Below are positions 1 through 62,367 of a stretch of DNA of 64,000 nucleotides, one piece after another. How positions within the stretch are numbered: the first letter of the stretch is position 1; each line of letters opens with the position of its first letter. The notes under the pieces were generated by a model. That model was not told where the DNA came from. It worked only from the letters and a program-made list of their open reading frames with translations, and did no database searches. This stretch comes from Nymphaea colorata (taxonomy: Eukaryota; Streptophyta; Magnoliopsida; Nymphaeales; Nymphaeaceae): positions 17,455,934 to 17,519,933 of the forward strand of contig NC_045138.2 of assembly GCF_008831285.2 (NCBI RefSeq), read 5' to 3'. A program made the translations under genes and the position numbers.

Positions 1-1016
1 TAGTACTAAAAAATAAGTTATTTTATAAAAAAATATAAAAAATACAGGAAAATGAAATGCCGTTTAAAAATTAAAAAAAACATGTCGCTTGAAAAAACAT
101 GAAAAAAGAAAAAAAATGCATTTTTAAGTTTTAACGCATTTTTTGTGTTTTTTTCACTTTTTAATGGCAAACAGTTTATTTTTTATTTGTTGCAAATGTA
201 CTCATATTATTTACTTGCTTATTTTATTTTTTATTATATATAGTTTTTTTATTTTAAAAAAATACATTCTTTTTGTTTTTTCTCATATATTTTTCAAGTC
301 AAACATATTATACCAAAGAAAAACCCAAATATATTATACGAAAGAAAAACGTTGCCGTTAAAATTCTGAGATGTTATCTATGACTATATATATATATATC
401 AAATGTGTCGAACCATGGCAGTAAGAAAAGTATATTAGTAAACACATGAAAAATGCATGCACTTTGAAATAGCATAAATGAGTTGCTTACTAGCTTCAAT
501 ATATAGCTTCAATATAGAAGAACAAAAAATTGCATCGAACTCCAACATCCATTTATAACCTTGTTCACATGGCTTCATGAGAAGGTTGAAAAAGAAGAAG
601 AAAAAAAAACCCACTCCAACATTCCTACAGAACATTATGTAAAGGGAGAGGCAGACCAAGGAAGGAATATCAATCCCCGAGAGAGCGAGATCGAAAGGGA
701 GAAAGAGGTTATGGCGCATGGAGTAGTGAAACCACATTGGAGAGCAATGGATGCAATCAGCAAATATTATCAGTTCCAGAAAGACAAGACGAAGAGAAGG
801 CTTGAAAGCGCACTCATTTTCATCTTCACCATTTTCCTTTTCTTCCATTTCATTTTGTTCATCATTGAGTATACTGTAATGTTTTTTGTTTTGAACTCAA
901 CCATCTTTGCGGAAGCAAAAAATGGAGAACACTTGATAAAGGTATCGGACAACGATCAGCTACAGATATGCGTGAGAATCCGTATGCTTTTATTTTTTTC
1001 TTACTAGTTTTCTTAG
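1..1016. other. A/T-rich flank without a confident gene
   Basis: Strongly A/T-rich DNA with poly-A and poly-T runs and a short TA tract near 383-400. A plus-strand frame from the ATG at 710 stays open to 1007. It starts with a basic stretch, then a run of Phe, Ile and Leu, and a GT that could be a splice donor lies near 971. It could be a first exon joined to the acceptor at about 1016, but I do not recognise the protein and the matching right-hand copy has no such upstream exon. I do not call it a gene. Confidence 0.4.
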
Positions 1017-1110
1017 GGATTTGGTATTTCGTTTGTGGATTCCTGCAAAGCTACAAGTTCTTAAACGAAGGGCTGAAGCAGCTGGTTTTAAAGTAGAGGT
1101 GGAGACTTAG
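1017..1110 (+). pseudogene. Last-exon fragment of an unidentified gene (left copy)
   Basis: After a pyrimidine-rich stretch ending in TTCTTAG, 94 bases read as one split-codon base, 30 codons and a TAG stop. The peptide ends in KRRAEAAGFKVEVET. A second copy of the same length, splice phase and C-terminus lies inverted at 4919-5012. Conservation of frame, stop and length suggests both derive from a real gene's last exon. I do not recognise the family. No convincing upstream exons are visible next to either copy, so this is treated as a gene fragment. Confidence 0.4.
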
Positions 1111-1800
1111 AAGAAATTTTAATGACGCTTTCTTCATTTTCTTAAGTTCAGTTCATGGTTTTCATGTACTACTGAAGACCAGACTATCTTTGCACTCTTG
1201 TATGCATATTTTACAACCTGTTTATATGGTTTTCCAGGAGTATGCTTTAGTGGCTCAAGCATGACTCACTATAATAATATCTGAGTCATATTATGCCATT
1301 CAATATTTTTCTCTGCTAGTTCTTCACCTCTTAAGTTAGTTCTTAATTTTTATTGCCTTATATTAGAGTCATACTGAATCCATGTATGAAATTTTGAAAA
1401 AAACAACCATTCCATGAGCCCGCGTTTACATGAAAATAGGTAAACAATCCGAATGCGAGTATGAATTGGATGTGCTTTTGAATGCTAGATCCAGATAAAT
1501 AGATCTGGATCATTTTCATGTGATCCAGAAGCGGATCTTGTTAGGGAAGAGTCTCCCTGGAATGTCGAAGGCAGAACTCAAACGGTTCTGCCTTAACCAA
1601 TGGTGCAAATTAATAAGTTGATCCCAGGGAAATTAATTTCACAAAAAAATGGTGCAAATTAATTAATTTGATTTGCCGGCCGATTCAAGAGTGGCGCTTG
1701 TCATTCATTATTCTTTTTTTTTTAACGTTTCTAAAGTTTTCTTCGTTTAAATTTTTTTTTATATTCTTTCTTTTATTTCTAAAAAACTTTTATTGCTGAT
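1041..1800 (+). repeat. Outer inverted-repeat arm, left
   Basis: Pairs with 4241-4988 in reverse complement. It contains an internal short hairpin near 1568-1594 (AAGGCAGAAC paired with GTTCTGCCTT), a second near 1490-1512 around an ATCTGGATC motif, and the short direct repeat AATGGTGCAAATTAAT near 1599 and 1649. All of these recur, reversed, in the right arm. Confidence 0.85.
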
Positions 1801-2015
1801 TTTTATGTAGCGTTTGATGGGCTGCTGTTGCGGGTCAGAAAAAAAATTTCAATTTTTTTTTATTTTTCTTGTTTATGGAGAATTTTTTTTTTTACCCTTA
1901 AAACTGAAAACAAAAATATACGTTCGAAAAACTTTTTCCATGGAGATGGATGCAAAAATTTTTCAAAAATTTCTTTTTTTACCGTTATCCCTCGCGACGA
2001 GCCGAAGACAGACGC

Positions 2016-2552
2016 AATTGCTTTCCACTTCAACAACCACTTGAAAAAATGAACCACTCAACCAAACAAAATGGAAACCCCGAAAAGAAAGAAGACTGTC
2101 TGATAAACAGACAGGTAGTAGAAACCTACTTACTCGTTGATGAGGATGCCAAAGTTGGAACGATACCCTCCTCCTTCATCGAACAATCCACATGTTCGAC
2201 GGCAAAAAACCTTGAAAGAAAATGCATAGAGAAGCAATCCGTAATACCAAAATAAGCAAGAGTTGCTGCTAAGCAAGAAATTGGCCAACGTTCCGCTTCT
2301 CCTGCCGCTCAGCAGAAACCGAAGCTCCTCCTGCTGCTCGGCAGAAACCGAAGGAAGAGAAGACCCAGAGGGAACCTCCAACGCTGGCGTCTCACCTGGT
2401 CGTTCAGCTCTCTCTTTGGCATCCTCATCAACGAGTAAGTAGGTTTCTACTAACTGTCTGTTTATCAGACAGTCTTCTTTCTTTTCGGGGTTTCCATTTT
2501 GTTTGGTTGAGTGGTTCATTCTTGTAAGTGGTTGTTGAAGTGGAAGGCAATT
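2016..2552. repeat. Inner hairpin 1: arms of 139 bp, 259-base loop
   Basis: 2016-2154 and 2414-2552 are near-perfect reverse complements with only a few mismatches. The loop at 2155-2413 is more G/C-rich than its surroundings and reads through without stops on the minus strand, as does most of the hairpin (2130-2603). The minus-strand peptide has a Ser/Pro/Glu-rich stretch but no domain I recognise, so it may be a captured gene fragment or chance. Confidence 0.85.
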
Positions 2553-2995
2553 ATAATACTTTTTAGGAAAATGACTGCAGATTAAGTGCACTTCCAAATA
2601 CACATATAATACTCACACAACACAACTTCATTAATATAGAAATTAGAAACTAACTCCAACATATCAATTCACCAAAAAAAAAAAAAATTGGTCATGCTTG
2701 AAAAATACAGTTGCATTAATATGAAAGCTACCTACCTTCAACAAATGACTACTTATTTTGTTTTTTCTAATGTTTTAACACAAAGCAATGACTAGATATA
2801 CTTTTCTTTTTAAGTGTAAGCAGCTTCACATGCTTGGTCAGTGTCAGTCACTTTTTCTCTTCTTTTAGGAGTACATCTATTGCTTTCTCAGGAATACAAC
2901 TAAGACATTTGGAGCACTGAAGTCTTGTTTAGTTGCCTAAATGACAAGTCTTGCTTAAAATATAATTTCAATTAAAGGCCAAAGTTCTTGGCAGA

Positions 2996-3462
2996 AAGAC
3001 TATGGCAACGAAAGCGGAAGCAAGGCAAAAAAACCGGTAGGTCCATGTTGATTAATTCTTGCATTTCCTTTGTTATCTTTCCACTACAGGCTTAACGACG
3101 CCCATAGTTGTTGGCAAAAAAAAGGCCAAACAAAGGAAAGAAGAAGGGAAAAGTGTACCAATATTCACCGTTGAATTAAAATCGCTTGTGAATATTGTCG
3201 AAAGAAGAAGGGAAAAGTGTGCGGTAGTTTTTCAATGCTCCTTTTTGACAATATTCACAAGCGATTCTCATTCAACGTTGAATATTGGTACACTTTTTCC
3301 TTCTTTTCTTTGTTTGGCCTTTTTTACTGCCAGCAACTATGGGCGTAGTTAAGCCTGTAGTGGAAAGATAACAAAGGAAATACAAGAATTAATCAACATG
3401 GACCTACCGTGGTAATTATTATTATTATTTTGCCTTGCTTCCGCTTTCGTTGCCATAGTCTC
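2996..3462. repeat. Inner hairpin 2: arms of about 205-215 bp, 47-base loop
   Basis: 2996-3199 pairs with 3247-3462 along almost its whole length, interrupted by a few mismatches and an ATT-repeat bulge near 3415-3430. The loop at 3200-3246 is short and itself repeats a GAAAGAAGAAGGGAAAAGTG motif also present in the left arm near 3147. Any transcript from either strand would fold into one long double-stranded stem. Confidence 0.85.
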
Positions 3463-3530
3463 TCTTTGTCTCTTCTTCTAGGTTTATTCCTCCCTTTGTC
3501 TGCTCCCCCTTTACATAATGTTTATTAAGC

Positions 3531-3930
3531 ATGGGCAACAGGCCGGGTACTTGATGCATAGTTGGCTATCTGACTCATGATGGACCGAGCTTGCGCTGGT
3601 TATTTGACACTTGGGCAACAGGCCGGGTACTTGATGCATAGTTGGGTACCTGACTCATGATGGACCGAGCTTGCGCTGGTTATTTGACACTTGGGCAACA
3701 GGCCGGGTACTTGATGCATAGTTGGGTACCTGACTCATGATGGACCGAGCTTGCGCTGGTTATTTGACACTTGGGCAACAGGCCGGGTACTTGATGCATA
3801 GTTGGGTACTTGACTCATGATGGACCGAGCTTGCGCTGGTTATTTGACACTTGGGCAACAGGCCGGGTACTTGATGCATAGTTGGGTACTTGACTCATGA
3901 TGGACCGAGCTTGCGCTGGTTATTTGACAC
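3531..3930. repeat. Tandem array, five copies of an 80-bp unit
   Basis: Units start at 3531, 3611, 3691, 3771 and 3851. Each carries GGCAACAGGCCGGGTACTTG and ends in GGTTATTTGACAC. The copies are nearly identical. Copy 1 differs at its first bases and at GGCTATC, and copies 4-5 have ACTTGAC where copies 2-3 have ACCTGAC. The next unit breaks down after TTGGGC. There are no variable spacers, so this is a satellite-like array rather than a CRISPR. It lies between inner hairpin 2 and the right outer arm and is not mirrored on the left. Confidence 0.95.
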
Positions 3931-4240
3931 TTGGGCTGGCCTGATTAAAGAAATTTGCCGAGCTAGGCTGGCTTCAATCAAATAATGGGGGCCCGACTCA
4001 AGCCAATGTGAGTTTTCCCGTTTTGTTTTCCTCTCTCAACGTCTGCATGGAACCAAGTTTATAAGTGAAGTTTGGACTTTGGGGCAGTTTTATTCAGTAA
4101 TGAAGATAGCGAATAGCCCATTTTTTGTGTTTGCTAATGTACCGCCTTAGTGCCTGACAGTGACCAAGCAATAGATGTACACCAGACGCTTCCTCACTGC
4201 TCAGACTCGGTTCTTCTTGTTGAAAATCGATTAAGAATTA

Positions 4241-4988
4241 GCAATAAAAGTTTTTTAGAAACAAAAGAGAAAAATATAAAAAAGAAGTTAAAACGAGAAA
4301 AACTCTAGAAACGTTAAAAAAAATGAATAATGAATGACAAGTTGAATCGGCCGGCAAATCAAACTAATTAATTTGCACCATTTTTTTTGGGAAATTAATT
4401 TCCCATGTGATCAGCTTATTAATTTGCACCATTGGTTTAAGGCAGAACCGTTTGAGTTCTGCCTTCGACATTCCAGGGAGACTCTTCCCTAACAAGATCC
4501 GCTTCTGGATCACATGAAAATGATCCAGATCTATTTATCTGGATCTAGTATCCAAAAGCACATCCAATTCGTACTCGCATTCGGATTGTTTACCTATTTT
4601 CCATGTAAACGCAGGCACATGGAATGGTTATTTTTTTCAAAATTTCATATATGGATTCAGTATGACTCTAATATAAGACAATAAAAATTAAGAACTAACT
4701 TAAGAGGTGAAGCACTAGCAGAGAAAAATATTGAATGGCATAATATGACTCAGATATTATTATAGTGAGTCATGCTTGAGCCATCATACTCCTGGAAAAC
4801 CATATAAACAGGTTGTAAAATAAGCATACAAGAGTGCAAAGATAATCTGGTCTTCAGGAGTACATGAAAACCATGAACTGAACTTAAGAAAATGAAGAAA
4901 GCGTCATTAAAATTTCTTCTAAGTCTCCACCTCTACTTTAAAACCAGCTGCTTCAGCCCTTCGTTTAAGATCTTCTAGGTTTGCAGGA
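4241..4988 (-). repeat. Outer inverted-repeat arm, right
   Basis: Reverse complement of 1041-1800. Small differences from the left arm include a four-base gap near 4783 (left has GCTTTAGTGG where this arm has GATGG) and single substitutions, so the arms have diverged slightly since duplication or last homogenisation. Confidence 0.85.
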
Positions 4989-5012
4989 ATGCGCAGGCAA
5001 AGCACCAAATTT
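4919..5012 (-). pseudogene. Last-exon fragment of an unidentified gene (right copy)
   Basis: Minus-strand counterpart of 1017-1110: acceptor TTCTTAG, 94 bases, 30 codons, TAG stop, same final 16 residues. Six of the first 14 residues differ from the left copy, while the C-terminal part and everything inward of it is nearly identical. No upstream exon is recognisable on the minus strand above 5012. Confidence 0.4.
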
Positions 5013-5124
5013 CTAAGAAGACAAGATCAAGCATCAAAAAAAGATTTGACAGACATAAACAAACATGCTGAGTATCAAATGTTGCGCAGAGTAGTAGATA
5101 CTAGAACCTCAACCTTCAAGGTAT

Positions 5125-5241
5125 ATTTGGCAATAGCAACAAATTGTTACTGTCCCATGAATCTGCCCCAAAGATTGATATGTTACGATAGTTTATGAAT
5201 GATCTGCCTCGATCTTTGGGATAGATACAATGGGCAACAAC
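5125..5241. mobile_element. MITE-like fragment
   Basis: Begins ATTTGGCAATAGCAAC and ends GGGCAACAACTT, with GTTACTGTCCCATGAATCTG inside. It is related in sequence and order to the element at 6953-7083. Boundaries are approximate and no clean target duplication was found. Confidence 0.45.
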
Positions 5242-6210: not shown

Positions 6211-6952
6211 ATTTGGTATAGCCCGGGTTTTACAGTTGCTGATTTTTTCAGTAAAAAGTATGTCGTTTTCTATCGCTAAGGCTTCAAGAAGTCAATACAT
6301 CCGAACTGAATTTCAACGATTTTAATGTTTTTCTGTTCACCAAAGGGGATCATGCGGGATCCATTTTTTTGGGCAATTCTGGTCGAAACATTCTTGGTGA
6401 AAATTAGAGTCGCAAATGGTAGAAACAGACATCTGAACAATTTCTTCAGCACCTAGCCATCTTTTAACCTGATGCATCTCGTGTTCGAAGAAAGAAAAGG
6501 ATCAAGACGTTGCAAACATTGAGTTCAATATTGGGGAGCACTAAATCTGCCTCCGACTATGACGTATCATAGCTTGGAAAACACAAGTTACATGTATAAA
6601 GCGGACATCATAGCCTGACCCACGCATCTACCTTATATGATTTTTACATGTCTTTTTAGCCAAATATTACATTATCAATACGACCTTTATTTATTTAGTC
6701 GATAATATTTTTAATATTTAGGTGGCCTTTCAATCAGCAGAAAAAAATTTAACCAAACAAAAATTAGAGGGTTTTAACGTCAGAGCTTGTTAGCCAAAAT
6801 TAAGTTTTTTGGGGAAATTTATTTGTTTAGTTATCAATAATAAGCACATTTGCATGTTTAGACGAAGTGTCAAAAGTTTGTTGAACTGTTCCCTTTTGAG
6901 TGTTTCATGCTGCTTAGGGTAGCAGATACTAGAGATTCTATCTTTAGGGTCC
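5242..6952. other. Intergenic DNA with a GA microsatellite
   Basis: No gene is visible. There is a GA dinucleotide run at 6172-6209, several poly-A/T tracts, and a degenerate duplication of the phrase around TTCCTTATCATTTTTCTCC (near 5560 and again near 5685). The rest is unassigned A/T-rich sequence. Confidence 0.5.
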
Positions 6953-7083
6953 GCTTGGCAACAATAATAAGCTGTTACTGTCCCATAAATCTACCCTAAA
7001 AATTGAAGCATATTCATAGACACTGTTATTATAGTATATAAATCTGCCCCAATCTTTGTGTCAACTTGATACTGTTGCCAAAC
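6953..7083. mobile_element. MITE with imperfect terminal inverted repeats
   Basis: Left end GCTTGGCAACAATA and right end TATTGTTGCC-like (read here as TACTGTTGCCAAAC) form imperfect inverted repeats about 130 bp apart. It contains no coding capacity. The internal phrase CTGTCCCATAAATCTACCC resembles the copy at 5125-5241. Superfamily is not assigned because the target duplication is unclear. Confidence 0.5.
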
Positions 7084-7764: not shown

Positions 7765-10700
7765 TCATATCACATTTCTTGATTCAGTCAGGTTTTGATT
7801 CTGCTTACTGTTGGTGTCTACTATGTTAGAGTTTTCTGGCTCCCATCCACCAGCCCAAGGAGCAGTAGGACCATCATTCGCACCACCGCGGATTCTTTTT
7901 TGCAAGTGCTCTAGGCTTGCAACTCGCTGCAAGGAAGGAGTGCGTCCGGTCTTGCCTATGGAACCATGAACTTCTTCACATCCATGATTGATATCTGAGA
8001 TGCCATTATTCAGTTCCTGCACATGAACAGGTTGGAAGTAGTGCTTTGAGTCATCCTGCACTGGGACTACAGAGTCTGCTGTGTTATCTGGTGGACTGCC
8101 GGAGAATTGCACGTGCACAGATGATATATCTGTCATTGTTGGGAAAAAGGGCCCTGCACCGGTCACTCTCTTGACAGTCTCTTCAGCCATCTTAACCTAG
8201 AGATATGCAATGGGCAGCTGCTGTCAGATCAAAACTACAAATAGAGCAAGCAAAAGAAGAAATGCCATATTTTAACAAATTCAGCATGCTGCTGAATTAA
8301 AGTTGTCCAGTTGTGAAATCTTTCAGTAACCAATAGAAAATAAGTCGTTCAACCTGGAGCATAATAGTGAACATATATTAATGCATTCAAAAGATGAAAG
8401 TAATCCACCAGAAACAAGACCATGAACCACTCTTCAACCAGCATCCAAATACAAAATTTACCTTTGCTCTAAGTGTTTCAACATCTGCCTTCAAGATTCT
8501 ATTGTCCACAGAAGCTTCATTGTACTTTTGGCTGATATCTGTAAGTCTCTTCAGTAATGATGAATTCTCGACTCTCAACTGTGCTACCTAATAATCATTA
8601 AAATTGGAAAGAAAAAGAAACTTCTCAGGAGTGAATCGTATTGAAAGGAAAACATAGGTAAGACGGAAATTGGAACCTGTGTCTCAAGCTCACTCAGATG
8701 TGCTTGTTTCCTTCTTCGTGAACGTCTTGCAGATTCTCGGTTTGAAAGCATCCTGAAACAATTCAGCAGATTACCATGAGTCTTGCACTATATAGAGTGA
8801 AATAAACAAGCCTTGATTGGACAGGAAATATTGCTAAACTTGTATAAGCACATGGTACAAAAGCAGGTGGCTTATAGCTTTTAGAAAATGGAAAGGATAA
8901 AGAAAGCCTATGAGATAGCCAAAAAGCACTGCAACATGAAGTACAATAAAAAAATGTATAAAAAGAGGGACCGAACAATGCCATTAAAGACTAATATATA
9001 GAACTTTTGAAAATGGTCTCACGCTTCCTCCCCTTCCAAAAAGTAAAATCTTTAGTCAATATGAATGGGAACCAGAGCTGGAGATTATCCATATCCAGCA
9101 GATCAGAAAATAAGACCAACATTATGCTACAATAGGAAGCTTTGAGCGTTTTTCTTTTTCTGGTTTTAAAACCATGAGGGCAGTCTAGTTATTAAGCAAT
9201 CAACTTCCACAATTCAGGAATCCATACACATTCAACAGGGTTTGTGTTTTAGAAAAAACTTCACAAATTATTGTGCTTATTCTTCTTTGAGCCCTTCATA
9301 TAGACTACAAGCTTAGGTGATATTACCACAAGCATGTGTTCCCACTCAGACAGGCACATTTCGGTAACACCATTTTGGTACTGTGATTACCTCCGCATTC
9401 GTTTTGCATCAGCAGGATCCATTTGCTCTGTCACCTCAGTCTCCCCTTCAACTTCATCATCCGATAGTTCTCTTGACGATCCACTTGTAGTCATTTTGAC
9501 TTGAGGGCCTTGATTTTTCTGCATGGCAGGCAAGGCTGGAATTCCAACTGGACCACCAACTGCATTGTCTGGTGTTCTGGAGAGGCCTGCAGAAGTCCTT
9601 GAAAGACAAAACTCAGAAACTACATTGATGTATATACATTATACAACAGTAAGAGCTTCAATACAAGAAAAGACAAAGCTGCCCCTAGCATGACAAAGAG
9701 AAGCTGAAGCCATGTGACAGGATGCAGTACGAAGCAGAACTGAAGCATTTGGACAGCTATGGGGGTTAATTGATTAGATTGTTTTCCCTTGAGATTGCAG
9801 CCAAATCTTAATCTTTACATTTTAACAATATGAACTACTATACAACTAGGACAAACTTTCTCCCTCTCTTTTCTTTATGTTCTCTACTTTCAAAGAACCA
9901 CAAGCTAACTAAATTGTGCAACTTTTGCTTGTTCATACGTAAATAACAAAAATAATAAAATCAGTAAACATAGGATATGTTTTATTTTCAAGGACTTGCC
10001 ACAATGTGTTATCGGTCAAAAGCTACAGCAACTAGGTTTTTGGGCATCCAAATGTAAGAAATTTTTTTTGCACTTGGTTTGTTGGTGACAAGTATTAACA
10101 AATTTTCAACAATAGTACTAATAGCAGTGTGATACCATCAATCAACCAGAACCTCAATACATTATGAAAAGCACTTTCTTGTTAACATATTTGATGCCTT
10201 ATGCCTTAGAACATATGAAGTGGAAATGCTTAACAGGGATTTCCACTTGTCATCAACTCATCCAATCACAGTTCACAACAGAGAAAAAGTACCCAAGTGT
10301 GTCCAAGTACCCACTTTGGGTATGGGTACAGTGACAGGCATGTGGACCTTATTGAAATACACATGTGACTTAGTCTATAAGTGAGAAAATACCAGGACTG
10401 CTCCCCAGATGTGGATAACTGACAATAATATGAAACTTATACCTTTAGTCGATGATTGAGAACATAGCTCAGATCTTTCTGAACCTTGATTCCCATTATC
10501 AGCCAGAGTAGCTTCATGTGATTTTACACCTGGTGCCTGCAAACATGTCAAAAGGCTTAAATCGGCCATGTTTACCATCACATAGATGACCATCAAGTAG
10601 ACACCAAGTTGCCAATGATGCATTTAAAATGCTCTAGTTCAGAATGTTGCATGACAATATGAAGGAAAAATGCTATATTGCTTTGACCAATAACTCTCTT

Positions 10701-25731: not shown

Positions 25732-28533
25732 TCACCCAGAACCACCCGTAGCTAATGACATACTTCGGGGAGCATCACCAGTTTCAGAAAACTGTCTCAT
25801 AGTAAAGCATGCCTGTTGAGCTTCATCGTGCATTCCCACCATAGCACAAAGAGTAGCCAACCATGCATGGGTGCCGCACAAGGCATTTTCCTTTTGTTTC
25901 TGTTTCAGCTGATTAACTGCCTCTTTTGAAACCCCTCCTTTGATCAAAATGGTACGAAGTGTTTTGTAAGTAGAACCATCTGGCAGTGTTCTAGATTCAA
26001 TCATTCTAGAAAATGTTTCAACAGCTTCTCTGTATCTTCCAGTTGAAGCATATAAGCAAATCACGTTGTTATAACTCAATGTCTTACTAAGAAGGCCAAG
26101 TGCTTGCATCTCTTGAGCAATACAAGACGCTTCACTGAATCTGCCAACCTTCTTGTATAGAAAAAGCATCATCGAATAAGAGAACTCGTTAGCTATTCCT
26201 TGGTCTTTTAGGTACTTGAAGATTTCTTCGGCATCATTAACCATAGAGTGTTGACTATACAAGTCAATCATACAATTGGAAGAGTACACATCAGGTCTAT
26301 CATCTGATGACTGATGCAACTTGTATATCTCCTCTGCTTCTCTTAAGCACCCAAGTTTGGTGTATAACTTAATTAAAGAATTAAAAATAACTGAGTTTCC
26401 AGAGAAACCTGCCTCATACATCAGAGAGAAATATCTTTTAACATGTCCGATGCTGCCAATTTCAGCAAATGCATTTATTAGTATACCAAACACAACAATA
26501 TCTGGCTTCACACCGGAAATAACCATATCTTGAAAAAGCTCCTCAGCTTTTTCCAACCGACCTAACTTAACGAAACTGGAAATAATGGCACAGTATGGGA
26601 CACAGTCATCTACAAATCCACCCTCCTGCATTTTGCTGATGTAACATCTTGCTTTATAAGGGAGTCCAGCACTTGAAAATATCTGTATCAGAGAATTATA
26701 TGTACATTTGTCTGGAAGGATGCCATAAGACTCCATAGTTTGGATCAACTGACAAGCCTTGTCATACATTTTGACTTTGCCATAAGCCTTAATCATCACG
26801 TTGAACTCCATAACACTTAATCTTTGCTTATCAGAACAACAATGAAATACCTTTTCAGCTTCCAGCAGGTAACCGCGCTCACCATAAGCATCAATAATTG
26901 CAGAATAGCATTCAGAACTCATCTCTTCTTTGCCAAGGTGAAACCTTTCGAACCAAGCCCATGATCTTTCAAGCATATTGACATCTATATACATCCTCAT
27001 GACTGTTGTTTGTATGAATTCATCGACATGGACACCCTCTTGGTCCATTTCTGCAATTACTGATTCAACTTCTTCCACCATGTTTCTATCTGAAAATGCA
27101 TACAAGAGGGTACGGTAGCTCACATGGTCAGGCTTGAGGCCAGACTCTTTCATTTTTGCGAAGTAACAAGAGACCATATTGATGTTCTGATTCTTCACGT
27201 GCAAGGACATGAGTATGTTGTATGTTCTTGCATCTGGAAGGCACCTAAGATCCTCCATCTTCAACAAAAGGGCATCTGCTTCTTCAATAAGCCCATGATT
27301 GCCACAAATATGGATCATTGTATTGAAAGTAATCGTGTTGGGAACTATTCCATCCTTAAGCATCTGGTTGAATAAATTTGATGCCTCTTGTAGTTGACCA
27401 GCTTTGCCATATGTATCAATTAGAGTGTTATATGTATACGAGCTGTAAAATTTCTGGGGCGATCGTGCAGAAAGAGAATTGACTTGTTGAAAATTCTGTT
27501 TTTGACTTGCATTTAAGCTATCGCAGGTATCACTAAGACTTGCATCTGAGGACCAATCCTTGAAAAATTGGTCTGCTTTTTCAAACTCTTTTGCTCTTTT
27601 GAACGTTTGTACAACAATTCCCATTGTGACTTCATCAGGTTTTATCCTGCGGCTCCTCATGTCATCTAGCCACATAAGAGCTTCATCTTTCAGTCCAGCT
27701 TTACTATAAGAATCAATTAGGGTACCATAGGTAGGGTTAGTGGGAATAATCCCCAAGACCTTCATTTCTTCCCAAAGTCTGCGAATATTATTCCACTGAT
27801 GTGATCTTCCAAGAATCCCAAACATAATATTGTAATGAATAACATTGAGTTCATAGGACCCCTTTTCCTTTAACCACCCAAAAATGTCGAGTGCACGTTC
27901 CCATCTCCATTGCTCCTTAAGTATTATGCTTATTTCTTTGCAATTTAAACTGGCTTCCCATGGCTTCAAGGCATTGTCCAAATCCTCAATGTCGTCTAAC
28001 GCTTGCAGCACGGAAGGAATTCGTCCTCCATAAGACAACCCCTTGCCTTTGGAAGGGTTTCTAAGAATATCTCTACCACCACGCCTGGATTTCTCCGATG
28101 CAGCAGGATGTAAAGATTCAACTTTTCCATTTCTCGAACTATTTCTGCCCCCTTTAGCACACTGAACAGATATGGAACGGTAACCAGAATCAAAACCTTT
28201 GTTTCTCAAAGACTTTACACACTTGGTGCCAGATTTAACACAACTAAACACACACCCGCTACTTAAATTTTCGTATTCTGACGGACTTCGACCTCTAGAA
28301 GAAGCATTTATCGGAAAACCAGGAAAGCCACGTCCCAATTTCCTGTTATTCTTAGAAATTATGCCATACCCGGAACACGAGCTCCCCAATAGATTACGTT
28401 CAACTCGCCTTCCCACAAAGTCTAACGATCCCCTTTTGGGATCTAAGTTCGCACAGCTTACTTCCATAGAGAACACAAAATTTGGGGCATTCCCATCATG
28501 ATAGCATGAACATCTCTGCACATATAGCATCAT
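25732..28533 (-). CDS. P-class pentatricopeptide repeat protein (At1g73710-like)
   Basis: Intronless, 933 aa. PPR proteins of this class bind organellar RNA, one base per repeat, and affect its processing, stability or translation; the exact target is unknown. The arrangement and many stretches match Arabidopsis At1g73710 as I remember it, for example YNTLIDTYGKAGQ, TFNTMIHICGNHG, SYRTLLYAFSDRNMVEE and PYCAIISSFVKLGRLEKAEE. Residues about 1-190 are Ser/Arg/Gly-rich and low in conserved motifs, consistent with a transit peptide plus linker. Degenerate 35-residue PPRs run from about 195 to 870. There is no E, DYW or SMR domain, so it is not an editing-type protein. Start is the first of two adjacent ATGs (28533). 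A shorter start giving MEVSCANLD, 22 residues later, is possible. Confidence 0.93.
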   Translation of the reverse strand: MMLYVQRCSCYHDGNAPNFVFSMEVSCANLDPKRGSLDFVGRRVERNLLGSSCSGYGIISKNNRKLGRGFPGFPINASSRGRSPSEYENLSSGCVFSCVKSGTKCVKSLRNKGFDSGYRSISVQCAKGGRNSSRNGKVESLHPAASEKSRRGGRDILRNPSKGKGLSYGGRIPSVLQALDDIEDLDNALKPWEASLNCKEISIILKEQWRWERALDIFGWLKEKGSYELNVIHYNIMFGILGRSHQWNNIRRLWEEMKVLGIIPTNPTYGTLIDSYSKAGLKDEALMWLDDMRSRRIKPDEVTMGIVVQTFKRAKEFEKADQFFKDWSSDASLSDTCDSLNASQKQNFQQVNSLSARSPQKFYSSYTYNTLIDTYGKAGQLQEASNLFNQMLKDGIVPNTITFNTMIHICGNHGLIEEADALLLKMEDLRCLPDARTYNILMSLHVKNQNINMVSCYFAKMKESGLKPDHVSYRTLLYAFSDRNMVEEVESVIAEMDQEGVHVDEFIQTTVMRMYIDVNMLERSWAWFERFHLGKEEMSSECYSAIIDAYGERGYLLEAEKVFHCCSDKQRLSVMEFNVMIKAYGKVKMYDKACQLIQTMESYGILPDKCTYNSLIQIFSSAGLPYKARCYISKMQEGGFVDDCVPYCAIISSFVKLGRLEKAEELFQDMVISGVKPDIVVFGILINAFAEIGSIGHVKRYFSLMYEAGFSGNSVIFNSLIKLYTKLGCLREAEEIYKLHQSSDDRPDVYSSNCMIDLYSQHSMVNDAEEIFKYLKDQGIANEFSYSMMLFLYKKVGRFSEASCIAQEMQALGLLSKTLSYNNVICLYASTGRYREAVETFSRMIESRTLPDGSTYKTLRTILIKGGVSKEAVNQLKQKQKENALCGTHAWLATLCAMVGMHDEAQQACFTMRQFSETGDAPRSMSLATGGSG

Positions 28534-31769: not shown

Positions 31770-34700
31770 TCAAGCCATCTTCAGTGCCTGCTGCAACTGA
31801 GATAAGACTGATGGATGTATCCTGCCCATGGCTGAATTAAAGTTTGATTCACCATGAATGGCAGCACATGCATGAAGATTCTCTTTTAGTATGTTCTCCA
31901 ACGCTAACTGCTTTATTGGATCAGACTCTTTTATCTGAAGATAGAAAACATGAAGAATAAAATAAAGAAAAGAAATTATAATAAAGCTAGGTTGCATTTT
32001 TTTCTCCAACAAATGCACATTGACATAATAAAATAATAAGACGCCTCATGATTCAGTTTGCATGCAGGTGTAAAGGATATCAAACTTCTATAGGTTTATT
32101 TATGTTTCCCTATATACCTTTTTTCTCTTACAGGAGATGAAGTTTATTGGTTTGAACTTTGAAGGGTAATAAGGGATCACCACTAAGAATACACGATGCA
32201 CATATATGGTCTCCACAATCTGGAGACCATGCCTTGATAAGCAAGTGTTGAAAGTAGAAAGTTTGGCTTTAAATGTGGTAGTTAGTTGAATATTTAAAAG
32301 TTAGGGTTCTCTTATGTCATTTCAATATTTTATGTGTCCTCCGTTTGTAACTGTTACAGCCGTGCCCTAATCTCTCTTTTAGTAGAGATTAGTGTACGAG
32401 ATTGAGTAAGAAGTTTTACCGCCTCTCTCTCTCTCTTTCTTTCTCTCGTTCTCCCCTTCCCTATTACGCAACATGGTATCAGAGCGACGACTCAAGCTGC
32501 TGGCGTGATCGGCTCAAGCTGCAGGCGTGATCGACTCAAGCTGCTGGCGTCATCGACTCTGTGTTCTGGCGTGATCGTTTCTTGCCCATCTTGCATACGA
32601 GAATATCTCAGACTTACGAGAACACCTCAAGCTGTTGCTGGAGTAATCTCTAACTTATCTCATATTCTCTGCTGTGTAGAGGAGGACCTGATCTCGCCTA
32701 TGTGGAAGGCGTGATCAGATCCTCACGTGGAGTATTTGGATATTTTTTTATGTGCTGGTCATGGATACTGTTTAGAGTGTTGAACGTTTAAGTGTTGAAG
32801 AAACGTTGATATGCTGTCTGTAGTTGTGGTTTGAGGGATGATCAGAAATTCTGGTGAAGCAAAATAGATGCAGAATTTATCTACGCAAGATGTGGAATGT
32901 TAGAAGCAGCGGCAGACTTCATTTATAAGTTCTGTTTTCCAGCAAGTTTATTCCCTGTCGTTTCCTGTGTAGTTTCAGCAAATTTTCTTTCCATCAAGTT
33001 GTCTGTTTTTCCCCTTTTCCTTGCTGTTTTGGGGGTTGTTGAAAGAGGCTGCGTGACTGTTCTTTGTTCTGTTCCTGAAGGCTGCGTGAAATTGCTGCAT
33101 ATATATATATTCCATTTTGGTCGTCCCATTCTTGCTGTGATTTATGATGGCTGAGAACCAAAGATTGGAGGGTGGTAATGATCATAAAGGAGTTGGAAAT
33201 CCCTTTTCCTATGGATCTACAGTTAAATTAGATGGACACAACTATGAGTTGTGGTCTAGATCCTTTATGTTGTCAGTAAAAGGACATCGAAAGAGACACA
33301 TTATTGAAGAGGATGAACCTCTTAACAAGACAGGCAAGTACATAACCTGGGAAGAGGACGACAGCATGGTTATGTCTTGGATTATGAATAGTGTCCAACC
33401 CCAAATTGCTTCTACTATTACTTACTATACTACTGCGAAGGAGATGTGGGACTTCCTTAGACAGACATATTCTCAAGATAAGAATGTAAGTAAAATCCTT
33501 CAAATTGAAGAAGAGTTGCACAACCTCCGACAGGGAAATCAAGATTTATCTCAATACTTTGCAACAGTGAAAGCTACTTATGAACGTCTGAAATTTTTGC
33601 GTCCTCCTTGCAAATCGTGTTATAAGTCACATTTTGAACCTACTATGGTTGCGAAGTTTCTTGCTGGTCTCTCCCCTGAGTATGCTTCTGCTAAGGATCA
33701 GATGCTCACTGGAAGTGAAATTCCTGAGCTCTCTGATGCATACAACAGACTTAGCCGTCTTGCTGTTAGCCTGTCTCAACCAACTGGTGTGACGCCTACC
33801 TCTGCTTCTGCTCTTGCTGTGGGGGTGGTCGCGGTCATAGCTCCACCTATAGTGCCAGAGGAAGAGGTATAGGTCGTGGAACTGGGGGCCGTGGGAGGTT
33901 CCAATGTACCTATTGTGGAAAGATTGGACACTTAGAGGATCGCTGTTGGGATAAACATGGTCGCCCATCCTCTTTGTCGCAAGGAAGAAATATAGTCATC
34001 AAACAGGGCAAGAGTCCTACTCACTTATCTATGGGTTCTGCACAGACTGCCACTCCTACAGTGGAGGACGCTTCGTCTAGTATAGCGCCAGAGACAGTTA
34101 CAGTCAGCATTGACAGAGTTGAGTACGAGCAATTTTTAGCGCACAAAGCCTCACAGGCTTCAGCTTCTACAGCGTTGACCGATCGAGCCATCTCAGCGGG
34201 TCCTTCCACATCTGACTCAGGTACTTTGTGGATTATTGATTCAGGAGCATCGAGACATTTCTGTAGTAGCCCTGGGTGGTTTACTACTCTACATAAATTT
34301 CCTCAGCCACGTCATGTCAAAATTGCAGATGGTAGACTGTCACCCGTATTGGGCTATGGAAATGTGAAACTTTCTCAGTCTATGACTATTTCACATGTTT
34401 TATATGCTCCTGACTTTCCATCTCATTTACTCTCGGTTAAACAGTTGACTACTGATTTACACTGTCGTGTTATTTTTGACCCTGGTTCATGCTCATTTCA
34501 GGACTTGCAAACTGGGAAGACGATTGGTGGCGGCTATGAGAAAGGGGGAGTCTACATCCTGTCGGCTCCAATGGGTCTTGCAGCTACCGCGTCTACATCA
34601 GAGTCTACAATCTTCCAGTGGCATCTCCGGCTTGGTCACCCTTCAGCACCCAAGCTTCGTTCTCTCCTGCCTAAACTTTCAGTTCCAGAGTCTTTCCAGT

Positions 34701-37700
34701 GTGAGGCATGTCAACTTGGCAAGCACACACGTAGTAGTTTTCCTTCGAGTCTTAGTCCTTCAAGTCAAGGGTTATTTGATCTTCTTCATGTTGATGTGTG
34801 GGGGCCTAGCAGGGTTGCTAGCCGAGATAGGTTTAGGTACTTTCTTGTCGTTGTTGATGATTATTCTCGAGTCAGTTGGGTATTCCTGTTGAAGGAAAGG
34901 TCTGAAGTAATTTGTATTCTCAAAAACTTGATTATTGAAATAAAGACTCAATTTAGTTCTGTGGTTAAGTGTATTCGCACTGATAATGCTCTTGAGTTCA
35001 AATCATCTATCTTAATGACCTTTTATGCTGAAAATGGTATCTCTCCCCAATTTACATGTCCTCATACCTCACAACAGAATGGAGTTGCCGAACGAAAACA
35101 TCGGCAACTTCTAACTGTTGCTCGAACCCTAATGCTTCATAATCACGTACCTGCATACTTATGGGGTGATGCCATTCTCATGTCTTGTTACCTGACCAAT
35201 CGTTTGTCATCATCCTCCATTGACAACAAAATACCTATTAAACTTGTTTATCCCAATCGAAGCTTGTTTTCCGTTGCACCAAAAGTTTTTGGTTGTACCT
35301 GTTTTGTTCATATTCTTGGGCCTAAACGTGATAAACTTGCTGCTCAAGCCATTAAGTGTGTGTTCATTGGCTACCCCCGAAACCAAAAAGGGTACAAGTG
35401 CTTTGATCCGGTAACTCACAAAGAGTATATCAGTGCGGATGTCACTTTTTTCGAGGAGCGGTCTTACTTTAATCCTCTTACTTCTACATCATCTGAAATG
35501 CCATGTCCTATCCCTTTACCTATCCCACCTATCCCGTTGCAATCCTTTCCATCTCCTACGCTGACTATGAATAGGTTTCAGGATCCTCCATTGGTCTACA
35601 CTCGGCGACAGGACCCCTCTCATGGTCGACCATCAGACTCTTCTCAAGATGTGAGCTCCACTGAAGTAAGTATACCTGATGTTGTTCCTTCAAATGACTT
35701 GCCTATAGCCCTGCGCAAAGGCAAGAGACAGTGTACCATGCATCCTATCTCTCACTTTGTTTCCACTACCCATCTTGATGATAACTTACAACAGTTTCTT
35801 AAGGCTATGGCAGTTCATACAGTCCCAACTAGTCATCAACAGGCCTTACTCGATTGTAAATGGCGAACAGCTATGCAAGATGAGATGGATGCCCTCGTAC
35901 AGCGTGGTACCTGGGAGTTGGTCGATCCACCTGACGACTGTGACATTGTTGGCGCCAAATGGGTATTTACAGTCAAATATCATTCAGATGGATCATTAGA
36001 GCGATACAAGGCTCGATTAGTGGCTAAAGGTTACACTCAGACATACGGGGTTGACTTCTTTGAGACGTTCTCTCCAATGGCAAGATTGGGCACTATTCGT
36101 CTTATTATTTCAGTTGCGGTTCACTCGGATTGGCCTATGTATCAGCTTGATGTGAAGAATGCCTTTTTGTATGGTGATCTTGAGGAGACCGTGTATATGC
36201 AACAACCTCCAGGGTTCGAGAAACAGGGGGAGTGTAGTAAAGTGTGTCGGTTGAAGAAGGCTATCTATGGACTTAAACAAAGTCCCAGGGCATGGTTCCA
36301 CAAATTATCAGGGGTAGTTTCACAGTGTGGATTTGAACGATCTCCTTTGGATCATTCTCTATTCATCAAGAAAACCTCTACAGGTATTGTTGTCATGATA
36401 GTATATGTTGATGACATTATTCTGACAGGTGATTGTGGTCAAGAAATATCTGCTACTAAGGCCTTCCTTCAAAAACATTTTGTCACGAAGGATCTTGGTC
36501 ACTTGAGATATTTTCTTGGAATTGAAGTTGTGGAGAACAAAGAAGGTGTAGCATTGTCTCAAAGGAAGTATGTCCTTGATCTTCTGCAAGACACAGGGAT
36601 GCTAGGGACCAAGCCGGCTAATCTCCCGATGAATCCTCGTATTCATCTTCATGATGATCAATCAGAACTAGTAGATTCCCGATCTTATAGGTCTCTTATT
36701 GGAAAACTGCTTTATGTTACTGTAACAAGACCAGATATTAGCTTTGCTGTTGGAAAATTAAGTCAGTTTATGGAAAAACCTAGAAAAGTCCACTGGGATG
36801 CGGCGTTGATGGTGTTGAAATATCTAAAATCTTCCCCAGGCAGAGGTCTCTTCTTTAAGAAAGGTGAATATCTAGATGTTGTTGCTTACAGTGATGCTGA
36901 CTATGCAGGGTCTGTTGATGATAGAAGGTCAACAACTGGCTTCTGTGTCTTTGTTGGGGGTAATCTCATATCATGGAGAAGCAAGAAACAAAATGTGGTC
37001 TCTAGATCAAGTGCAGAATCTGAATATAGAGCAATGGCTCAAACAGCTACTGAGATGACGTGGATTAAATCTATGCTAACGAATATGAGTATTCATGTTC
37101 CTCTTCCTATGAGAATGTATTGTGATAACAAGGCTGCTACTTATATTGCAAACAATCCAGTATTTCATGAAAGAACTAAGCACATTGAGGTGGATTGTCA
37201 TTACATTCGTGATCTTATAAAAGAAGGTGTAGTGTCTACAGTTCATGTAGCTTCTGAAGACCAAGCCGCAGATATGTTTACGAAAGCTCTTCCGATTGGT
37301 GATTTCTCTAGATGTTGTGACAAGCTGAGCATGGTTGACATCTATGCTCCAGCTTGAGGGGGAGTGTTGAAAGTAGAAAGTTTGGCTTTAAATGTGGTAG
37401 TTAGTTGAATATTTAAAAGTTAGGGTTCTCTTATGTCATTTCAATATTTTATGTGTCCTCCGTTTGTAACTGTTACAGCCGTGCCCTAATCTCTCTTTTA
37501 GTAGAGATTAGTGTACGAGATTGAGTAAGAAGTTTTACCGCCTCTCTCTCTCTCTTTCTTTCTCTCGTTCTCCCCTTCCCTATTACGCAACAGCAAGCAC
37601 AACAAAATGACTACAAAGGAGAAATTTTCAATATCCAATTCACATATTGACCAATTACATCAATGATGACAAATAGCAACAGCTATTGAGGAGATCCACT

Positions 37701-60254: not shown

Positions 60255-62367
60255 TCAAAATGTGACTGTGATTCCAAGAACACTGGCAAGGTCAGAAATG
60301 AAGTTCGGAAGAGAATTCCATCCCTTTGCGGTAACCATTTTCCCATGAGCCACTGATTCAGAAGTCTCATCTGCCTCCCCTCCTGCTAGCCCAACCACAA
60401 CTCTCATTCCACCACTACTGGCACATTTCTTCCCCTACAAAAACCGATTCAATTGAACTTCTTCAGCTTTTTTAAATCCACACACACACACATACATGCC
60501 CCTGCAAGCCTGTCGGGGTAACCCCTGATATATTAAATCAAAAGAATGGGAAATACACACATGTATAGAGCCAAGGAATGCTAACTCTAGGCCTCTGTGG
60601 GCAAAGACAGCCAGAACTTTCTGGTTAAGGGGCACTAGGTGTATAATTTTAAATTTGCAAGGAGCACCAATATATAAACGAGAAAAATTGTCCTGAAAGT
60701 TCAATATGAAAATAAGAATTTTTGGGGGGTTTGTGTGGGCAATTGCCCACACTTCGCCTACACCTGTCTTTTCCCCTGTCAGTGGGACAACATGGCTGGA
60801 GATAGCTTTTGGTTTATCTAAAGCAACATATGCACTCAATATGGTGTACTCAGCAAATTTCAATTCTTCGTTTGTAATAAGAGCAGTAAGACCAAGTAAA
60901 ACTGTAAAACTACTGGTTTGCACTAATTTAATTCAATTCATATGATTCAATGACTCAGAGAAAAGCACAGGCAAATTAGTTTTCGAAAAAACTAACAATC
61001 AATTACTTAATTACTTTATTGGAAAACAACTTCTCTTGAGTTAGTGAGAGAGAGAGAGAGAGACCTTAAGAAGCCCAGCAGCAGCCAAGACAAGCTGTCC
61101 CTCTCCAATTGCAGAAACAATCTTGTTCTCTTCTGAGAATTGCTTCACCAATGACACAACCCTTTCATCGACGGCCAAGTATTCAGGAGCCCTGCCTCCG
61201 GGGATCACAATGCAATCGTAATCTGCCACCTTCATCCTTTCGACGTCGTTGGTGATGATGAAGTAATGCCCAACCTTTTGTTCGCTGCATATTTCTGATC
61301 CTTTGATGCCAAAATCTTGAATGCACGTCACACACTTTTCCCCTGCACTCTTTCCGGGGCTTATTGCATCAACTCTGCATCCCAAACCTCCAAATGCCCT
61401 GAACACCACATTGATCTCGTAGTCTTCCGTGTAATCCTTCAACCACACACAACATTCAATATCATTATATTGGTGTATTATATATATATATAAAACATGC
61501 AACTTCTTTTCTTCACGGAGAAAGTAAATGGCCAATAAACATCTTATAGACTGATATTATTACATCATGAAATACATTTCAAATGTAATAACATCTATAA
61601 GAATTACTTTAGTCATTTGAAATCCAACATGAGACATCGGATCTTACCCCACAGACGAAGAGGACCGATTTACCATGAGCTCCTGTGATTCTTGCTCCCA
61701 TCGAGCCAAGAAGTTGGCTAAGTATCTCATTGTGGGCCGGCCAGCCAATTGCAGTTATGACATTGCCATCAGCAACGGCAGTGGTAACTGGGTCTGGTTC
61801 CACCCATGCACCGCCTGCAAGCTTGACCACATGCTTCAAGCTGGGAAATGCGGTGCACCTCTTGCCACTGATCAGGCCAGCTGAGACCAGGACCAGCTGG
61901 CTATGGCACGTAGTCAAGATCGGCCGGCCGAGCCCGGCGAACCGCGTCACCATGTTTACGACATCGTCATCGACACAGATAACTTCCGTGAACCGGCCGC
62001 CGGGGATGATCAGTGCATCATAATCCTCAAGATTAGCATCGCTGAAGCTGGCGTTTAACGTGAAGAAATGACCTTCTAGCTCCGTGTATATCTGTTTGAA
62101 ACAAGCAATTCACTGTTAAGCACTGTAGCTGCAGTCCTTGCGTTACGAAGTTTGAAAGAGGAGGGAGAGAGCGGGGTTTACCTCATATCCCATGTACTCG
62201 TGGACGGCCGTGACGCACTTCTGACCCGTTTTTTTGTTTGGCGATACGGCATCGACTCGGACGCCAACGGCTTGGAGCACCTGGAACGGCACCATGGCTT
62301 CGTAGTCCTCCATGTAATCTCCGCATATCATCAGCGCTCGCTTTGCTCTCTGACCGACCGATCCCAT
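60255..62367 (-). CDS. DJ1D: Tandem-domain DJ-1/PfpI protein, DJ-1D type
   Basis: Plant DJ-1D proteins carry two fused DJ-1 domains and act as glutathione-independent glyoxalases (methylglyoxal to lactate) in carbonyl and oxidative-stress protection. Four exons: 62182-62367, 61648-62091, 61065-61436, 60255-60434; all in phase, 393 aa, close to the Arabidopsis length. Domain 1 (about 9-200) starts ALMICGDYMEDYE with the conserved Glu at 23, and has the nucleophile elbow TTCHSQ with Cys124-His125. Domain 2 (about 204-393) repeats the plan (FVCGDYTEDYE, Glu217; PGGRAPEYLA) but reads SAIGEGQ where the family has CHGQ, so the catalytic Cys and His are replaced by Gly321 and Glu322. Domain 1 also has GGRFTE instead of GGRAPE. 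Start is the first ATG (62367). Likely only one active site, or a changed function. Confidence 0.93.
60640..60775 (-). repeat. Dispersed repeat copy 2, in DJ-1D intron 3
   Basis: Reverse complement matches 21955-22080 in motif order: CAGGTGTAGGCGAAGTGTGG, GGCAATTGCCCACA, a T-rich stretch, TATATATTGGTGCTCCTT. The wording GGGGCACTAGG just beyond it fits the end of a common plant retroelement type. Inserted in the intron between exons 3 and 4. Confidence 0.65.

Follow-up and report, generated by a model that had tools for sequence, protein, structure and literature searches.

A tandem orphan gene cluster in Nymphaea colorata ends in a probable fold-back inverted duplication

Near one end of a 64,000-nt stretch of chromosome C1 of the water lily Nymphaea colorata (C1:17455934-17519933, hereafter the window), two facing copies of a gene end enclose a set of hairpins and repeats. 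We find that the outer arms of this structure and one of its two inner hairpins, hairpin B, are best read as a single interrupted palindrome with its axis at ~3223. This palindrome likely arose where a tandem cluster of orphan genes ends on its downstream side, by fold-back (snap-back) inverted duplication, and received insertions afterwards. Plain positions are those of the window, and C1, C2, and C10 are chromosomes of the 407.8-Mb, 783-contig assembly in which the genome searches were run. All counts of genome matches are lower bounds, as the search skips very common words.

Results

The outer arms of the palindrome, 1004-1805 on the left and 5025-4232 on the right, are 92.45% identical over 808 columns including gaps. 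With the 9 gap blocks set aside, 747 of 788 columns are identical, and the 41 mismatches consist of 28 transitions and 13 transversions. The last exon, which reads KRRAEAAGFKVEVET and then a stop, is present in both arms, and the two copies face each other, as the initial annotation had described. Inverted copies of one unique gene segment therefore stand close together, the arrangement expected of a fold-back palindrome. That annotation had also proposed that three unrelated inverted repeats within the interval exceed what chance would give. As to chance, this was borne out: when 901-5100 was shuffled 20 times in two-base blocks, the best self-inverted match scored 33.7 bits, compared to 1160, 517, and 229 bits for the real inverted repeats. 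The word "unrelated" probably does not hold, since the outer arms seem to share a single palindrome with hairpin B. A survey of 204 kb (C1:17316001-17519933) found the surroundings to be rich in inverted repeats, with 31 more rows (some nested or overlapping), all of them just upstream in C1:17395323-17441177, which makes inverted repeats at this location less surprising. The same survey found no further close inverted repeats in the rest of the window, and the genome search, with very common words skipped, found no second copy of the whole composite unit.

The initial annotation had left the exon in the arms unidentified and had suggested its parent gene as the possible silencing target. The genome search shows that this parent is no distant locus and leads to a tandem family adjoining the palindrome on C1. 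Matches to the last exon and 3' flank are confined to C1:17373833-17460943 (9 of 9 DNA rows), and a composite protein query returned the same cluster in 9 of 9 rows. The family consists of six tandem copies within ~84 kb of C1, all on the plus strand: c2 (17373818), c3 (17393273), c4 (17421728), c5 (17444122), c6 (17447631), and gene 1, the left-arm copy in the window. The right arm is the sole inverted copy of the family and is a 3' fragment; on the minus strand beyond ~5053, no upstream exon was recognized by eye. It is closest to gene 1 (94.8%), with c2, c3, c5, and c6 at 82-87% (ungapped) and c4 giving the same match values as c3. Across the 28,455 bp that separate them, c3 and c4 have identical match values (C1:17391473-17393823 and 17419928-17422278), which may reflect either a recent segmental duplication or a duplication in the assembly. 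The family protein could not be assigned to any Pfam family at the cut-off; a guessed form of the gene 1 protein retrieved Sigma_reg_N and HlyD_2, both below their cut-offs, and neither the protein forms based on c5 nor the frame in hairpin B had a Pfam match. Gene 1 lacks an AG at the site where c5 has TTCCAG ahead of exon 2, and its apparent intron 2, a GT...AG interval at 982-1016 identified by eye, is merely ~35 bp long; for these reasons gene 1 is probably decayed.

Hairpin B (2993-3465) has 204 or 207 of 221 positions identical, depending on which of two alignments is used, and 205 of 227 if the loop-side sequence is forced in; 39 nt separate its innermost arms. In the initial annotation, hairpin B and the other inner hairpin, hairpin A, were taken to be independent. 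Both hairpins exist, and hairpin A does appear to be a separate fold-back, whereas hairpin B is probably tied to the outer arms, because its outer ends are a family-type gene start that runs on, on the right side, into the family 5' untranslated region (UTR). Read on the plus strand, the left half of the palindrome passes from the gene end (1004-1805) through distal upstream sequence (2553-2965) and the gene start (2993-3033) to the inner stem. Read on the minus strand, the right half passes from the gene end (5053-4232) through upstream sequence (4161-4046), an inserted repeat, and the 5'UTR and gene start (3529-3433) to the inner stem. Each half thus spans the interval between the end of one unit and the next unit's start, and the two halves would meet at ~3223. 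The divergence between the arms is 41 of 788 columns for the outer arms and 14 or 17 of 221 for hairpin B (Fisher p 0.50 or 0.19), values compatible with one age for both. These homologies, and their order, orientation, and divergence, are observed in the alignments.

Several observations weigh against a single palindrome. Between the arms and the stem, ~1806-2830 on the left and 3466-4148 on the right do not align, save for one 22-bp match (20 of 22 bases) whose score of 34 compares to a best score of 31 among 200 shuffles (30 in a second run). With the halves largely unalignable here, the case for one palindrome rests on the family matches and their order, and part of these matches are weak, at 75-79% over 40-105 columns. 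The proximal upstream region is present in the right half and not in the left, and collinearity is incomplete for the small pieces at 2831-2890 and 4149-4183. The 41-bp gene start was retrieved by search against c2 on the right side only, the left copy being recognized by its likeness to the right. Finally, including the loop-side columns raises the divergence of hairpin B above that of the outer arms (22 of 227, Fisher p 0.019). The unalignable sequence, this additional divergence, and the 31 rows of other hairpins nearby would all suit an alternative in which a tail-to-tail gene-end duplication and two unrelated hairpins came together by chance as three independent inverted repeats. We consider this unlikely, because the outer end of hairpin B is a family gene start running into family 5'UTR in the orientation that a palindrome predicts, and because the divergence of hairpin B is otherwise like that of the outer arms.

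From these observations we infer a fold-back and template-switch mechanism and a sequence of events. Intron 2 of gene 1, its last exon, and its 3' flank up to the start of the next unit would have been copied back on themselves around the axis at ~3223, with the right arm left as a truncated tail-to-tail copy and hairpin B as the central stem. At the turn, template switching into sequence like that at C10:5.012 Mb would have supplied the palindrome centre. The inner stem is 95% identical to C10:5012163-5012285 and 98% identical to C10:5011951-5011992, and around the axis, patches of the C10 sequence are found in either orientation, with two copies of one 21-bp piece, a pattern expected from template switching. 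At a later time the left half would have gained hairpin A, with its eIF3b-linked loop fragment, along with a repeat fragment, the right half would have gained the repeat that carries an 80-bp array, and each half would have shed different pieces of intergenic sequence. Any effect on the genes would presumably come about through read-through transcription, giving a long hairpin RNA. The features on which this account draws are collected in Table 1.

Table 1. Features of the palindrome and its insertions, in window positions
Feature	Position	Strand	Description
Gene 1 (6th family copy)	440-1016	+	Upstream/5'UTR ~440-700, ATG 711, exon 1/2 region; homology to c2-c6
Left outer arm	1004-1805	+	Last exon from 1017, stop 1108-1110, 3'UTR and downstream sequence of gene 1
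Many-copy repeat fragment, left half only	1807-1987	+	29 of 43 rows of genome search (lower bound)
Hairpin A, left arm	2016-2154	-	Reverse complement of ATP sulfurylase exon-1 end and intron 1 start; likeness extends outward to ~2005
Hairpin A, loop fragment	2276-2403	+	~128 bp matching C2:114332-114462, C10:6464367-6464499, and C10:6449709-6449795
18-bp exact patch	2397-2414	+	From further down ATP sulfurylase intron 1; ~7 bp overlap with loop fragment
Hairpin A, right arm	2414-2552	+	ATP sulfurylase exon-1 end and intron 1
Left half, distal upstream of family unit	2553-2965	+	Matches ~1.2-1.7 kb upstream of ATG in c2 and c3/c4; also 5.48-kb tandem units at C1:17329505-17346225
Palindrome left half, gene start	2993-3033	+	Family-type, ATG 3002; outer end of hairpin B
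Palindrome centre	3037-3409	.	Inner hairpin B, axis ~3223; both arms match C10:5012163-5012285; second patch C10:5011951-5011992
Palindrome right half, gene start and 5'UTR	3425-3529	-	3433-3529 75% to c2 17373355-17373457 (77/103 columns); 3485-3522 90% to gene 1 669-631
80-bp array	3532-3936	+	5.1 copies, within an inserted repeat of ~3535-4044 that has relatives elsewhere: 38 of 43 rows of genome search (lower bound)
Right half, upstream region of family unit	4046-4170	-	77% to c6 over 4046-4123, 79% over 4121-4161; 22-bp 4149-4170 matches left 2831-2852
Right outer arm	4232-5053	-	Inverted gene-end copy; matches family (c6) into intron 2 to ~5053

We also weighed whether the palindrome could be an assembly artefact, that is, a palindromic chimera of long reads. 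Missed adapters in PacBio RSII reads can yield palindromes. The likely source genome of the window, that of Nymphaea colorata, is reported to have been assembled from PacBio RSII reads (PMC7015852), which is a point in favor of an artefact. Nevertheless, the outer arms differ by the 41 substitutions listed above, unlike a read artefact, and the two halves hold different inserts, whereas the halves of an artefact would be expected to be near-identical or to differ mainly by insertions and deletions; the chance that such an artefact explains the locus seems to us next to negligible.

Hairpin A (2016-2552) has two arms of 139 bp, 2016-2154 and 2414-2552, which are identical at 134 of 139 positions and match C1:17835057-17835207 at 84-86%. 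The matched sequence spans the junction of exon 1 and intron 1 in a gene identified as an ATP sulfurylase (Pfam PUA_2, E 2.1e-28; PDB 4maf, E 9.2e-50). A second ATP sulfurylase gene, at C2:17203862-17204316, was considered as a nearer parent and rejected, as it yielded no match better than E 1.6 at the exon end and the sequence that follows. The hairpin is asymmetric, with its left side following the parent 11 bp beyond the end of the right arm. This asymmetric likeness and the displaced 18-bp intron patch make hairpin A unlike the ends of a transposon, and judging from sequence it is a fold-back separate from the outer palindrome. At C2, the match to the loop fragment adjoins a frame that resembles eIF3b structures (best E 1.7e-8), a label taken from structure search only; the eIF3b-like peptide had no Pfam match.

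The five 80-bp repeats that the initial annotation reported were confirmed as an array at 3532-3936 (period 80, 5.1 copies, 99% matches). The inserted repeat that carries this array is flanked by GCATGG at 3529-3534 and 4045-4050, which by eye is a candidate target-site duplication. For the many-copy repeat fragment in the left half, at least 7 of 11 compared genomic copies, among the alignments listed, stop aligning at window 1983-1987, and the genome search found the arms of hairpin A at none of the copies of this repeat.

Pieces of several genes thus lie inside the palindrome, which raises an alternative in which the arms are the terminal inverted repeats of a Pack-type element (Mutator-like or other) with captured gene fragments; Pack-TYPE elements are reported to capture coding DNA (PMC8903248). 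The distribution of the arms does not agree with this, as the outer arms occur in the local gene cluster only and the arms of hairpins A and B each occur at one other place (common words skipped), and the ends of hairpin A are asymmetric with respect to its parent. Inspection by eye revealed no clear target-site duplication at the outer ends (1004/5053) or at the hairpin ends. A miniature inverted-repeat transposable element or Pack-type element is likewise disfavored by the genome search, which did not find a multi-copy element with matching ends. Overall, we regard a transposon origin as highly improbable.

Discussion

On its structure, the locus is of a known kind, probably a fold-back inverted gene duplication. 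Rice Lgc1 is a tail-to-tail case involving glutelin genes. The initial annotation had pointed to convergent inverted gene copies, such as the Arabidopsis PAI genes, that make silencing double-stranded RNA. Inverted gene duplications are reported to make small interfering RNAs (siRNAs) at PAI, VIM4-VIM2, and soybean CHS (PMC13213937, PMC6710647). In Arabidopsis Cvi-0, the tail-to-tail PAI4-PAI1 and head-to-head VIM4-VIM2 repeats are reported to give siRNAs, VIM4-VIM2 doing so after a deletion that permits read-through (PMC13213937). Arabidopsis PAI1-PAI4 resembles the present locus in being a tail-to-tail inverted gene duplication next to its source (PMC13213937); the present locus differs in that only the 3' end is duplicated, the arms are ~5% diverged, and the structure is known from sequence. 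The Cvi-0 VIM4-VIM2 repeat is likewise described as a palindrome of clustered paralogues that is structurally variable and shows transposable-element activity, but its genes are head-to-head, and its siRNAs and trans-silencing are reported as demonstrated (PMC13213937). The soybean I locus (CHS1-3-4 / CHS4-3-1) is similar in being an inverted repeat with a spacer within a gene cluster, and differs in that its arms are given as identical, 10.91 kb long, and of three genes each, with siRNAs demonstrated (PMC6710647).

By analogy with these loci, read-through transcription that enters from gene 1, or from the right side, could give a long hairpin RNA. Dicer-like processing of this RNA into 21-24-nt siRNAs could then lead to silencing of gene 1 or its paralogues, or to methylation of the locus, as described for PAI, VIM4-VIM2, and the soybean I locus. 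Such a small-RNA locus is compatible with a fold-back origin, and we think of it as a possibility with the balance tilted somewhat against it. On the favorable side, the predicted fold of hairpin A is -317.3 kcal/mol versus a shuffle mean of -140.8 (z -28.7), and that of hairpin B is -331.3 kcal/mol versus -112.8 (z -37.4), with none of the 100 shuffles made for each hairpin being as stable; a transcript of either hairpin would be predicted to fold strongly. Perfectly pairing 21-mers between the arms amount to 294 of 782 windows for the outer arms, 66 of 119 for hairpin A, and 35 of 204 for hairpin B, and 90-185 of the 774-782 outer-arm 21-mers match each of the five paralogues with at most three mismatches. 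Gene 1 also retains the family-type upstream region, there is no AATAAA on the plus strand from the gene 1 stop to the axis, and similar loci are reported to yield siRNAs (PMC13213937, PMC6710647).

Other observations argue against a small-RNA locus. Exact 21-mers shared with the paralogues are few: out of 782 in the left arm and 774 in the right arm, respectively, c2 has 9 and 9, c3 and c4 each have 24 and 16, c5 has 8 and 8, and c6 has 0 and 0. Exact 21-mers from the hairpin A arms to ATP sulfurylase number 9 and 12 of 119, the arm being nearly all intron. In the right half, the minus strand carries three AATAAA motifs, at 3483, 3521, and 4089. A microRNA gene was considered and rejected, as Rfam gave no family match in the window (0 matches at the gathering threshold), and gene 1 looks decayed, as noted above. 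We would like to note that plant poly(A) signals are degenerate, so the missing AATAAA says little; within 1 kb, the motif is present for c3-c6 and there is none for c2. Because exact 21-mers to the paralogues are few, while 294 of the 774 21-mers of the right arm match gene 1 exactly, cis effects appear more plausible than trans effects. Gene 1 would thus be the main possible target, and silencing of its paralogues is possible but weakly favored.

A broader version of this idea treats the whole as a composite locus, with hairpins from four sources (the orphan family, ATP sulfurylase, eIF3b-adjacent sequence, and chromosome-10 sequence), in which siRNAs directed at several unrelated genes, including the ATP sulfurylase pre-mRNA, would come from one long transcript starting at the gene 1 end. 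The ATP sulfurylase family is a known miR395 target. Even so, we hold the composite locus to be very unlikely.

Inverted duplications of coding genes are reported to seed new MIRNA loci (PMC1790633). The locus is similar to young MIRNA or siRNA fold-backs such as MIR163, as described there, in that the arms of hairpin A are gene-derived and those of hairpin B derive from other unique sequence, in both cases by inverted duplication (PMC1790633); it differs from them in that the arms of hairpin A are mainly intron and in having no Rfam match. The short spacer at the turn, 39 nt here, is a feature shared with human fold-back inverted duplications, but those are described as large and found in the chromosomes of patients, while the present one is internal, ~4 kb, and in a plant (PMC3907307). 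In a literature search that was not exhaustive, no paper on this locus was recognized by title among those listed.

The locus may offer a snapshot of the birth of an inverted repeat at the edge of a tandem cluster, in an early-diverging flowering plant, and of its later collection of fragments of other genes. Plant siRNA and microRNA genes are proposed to originate from such raw material (PMC1790633). With the sources of the arms identified, small-RNA reads could tell silent debris from an active silencer.

Other features of the window and its surroundings

Between the tandem gene copies, C1:17395323-17441177 is dense in close inverted repeats. Within this region, 17413256-17414201 is a palindrome that is 98% self-complementary, and inverted repeats of ~740 bp at C1 17401683, 17411252, and 17431341 may form one family of hairpin elements. 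Further upstream, four places spaced ~5.48 kb apart in C1:17329505-17346225 share sequence with window 2701-2965 and are apparently tandem units.

On the other side of the palindrome, window 5079-5178 resembles 6907-7006 at 74%, and the minus strand at 7768-8787 carries a bZIP transcription factor gene, the next one after the right arm (bZIP_C at 7768-8196, bZIP_1 at 8587-8787). Elsewhere in the window, the minus strand carries a frame for a 933-aa pentatricopeptide-repeat protein (25732-28533) and two frames with DJ-1/PfpI domains (61041-62109), and the plus strand carries gag and pol frames of a Copia-type long terminal repeat retrotransposon at 33141-37357 (RVT_2, rve, and gag models).

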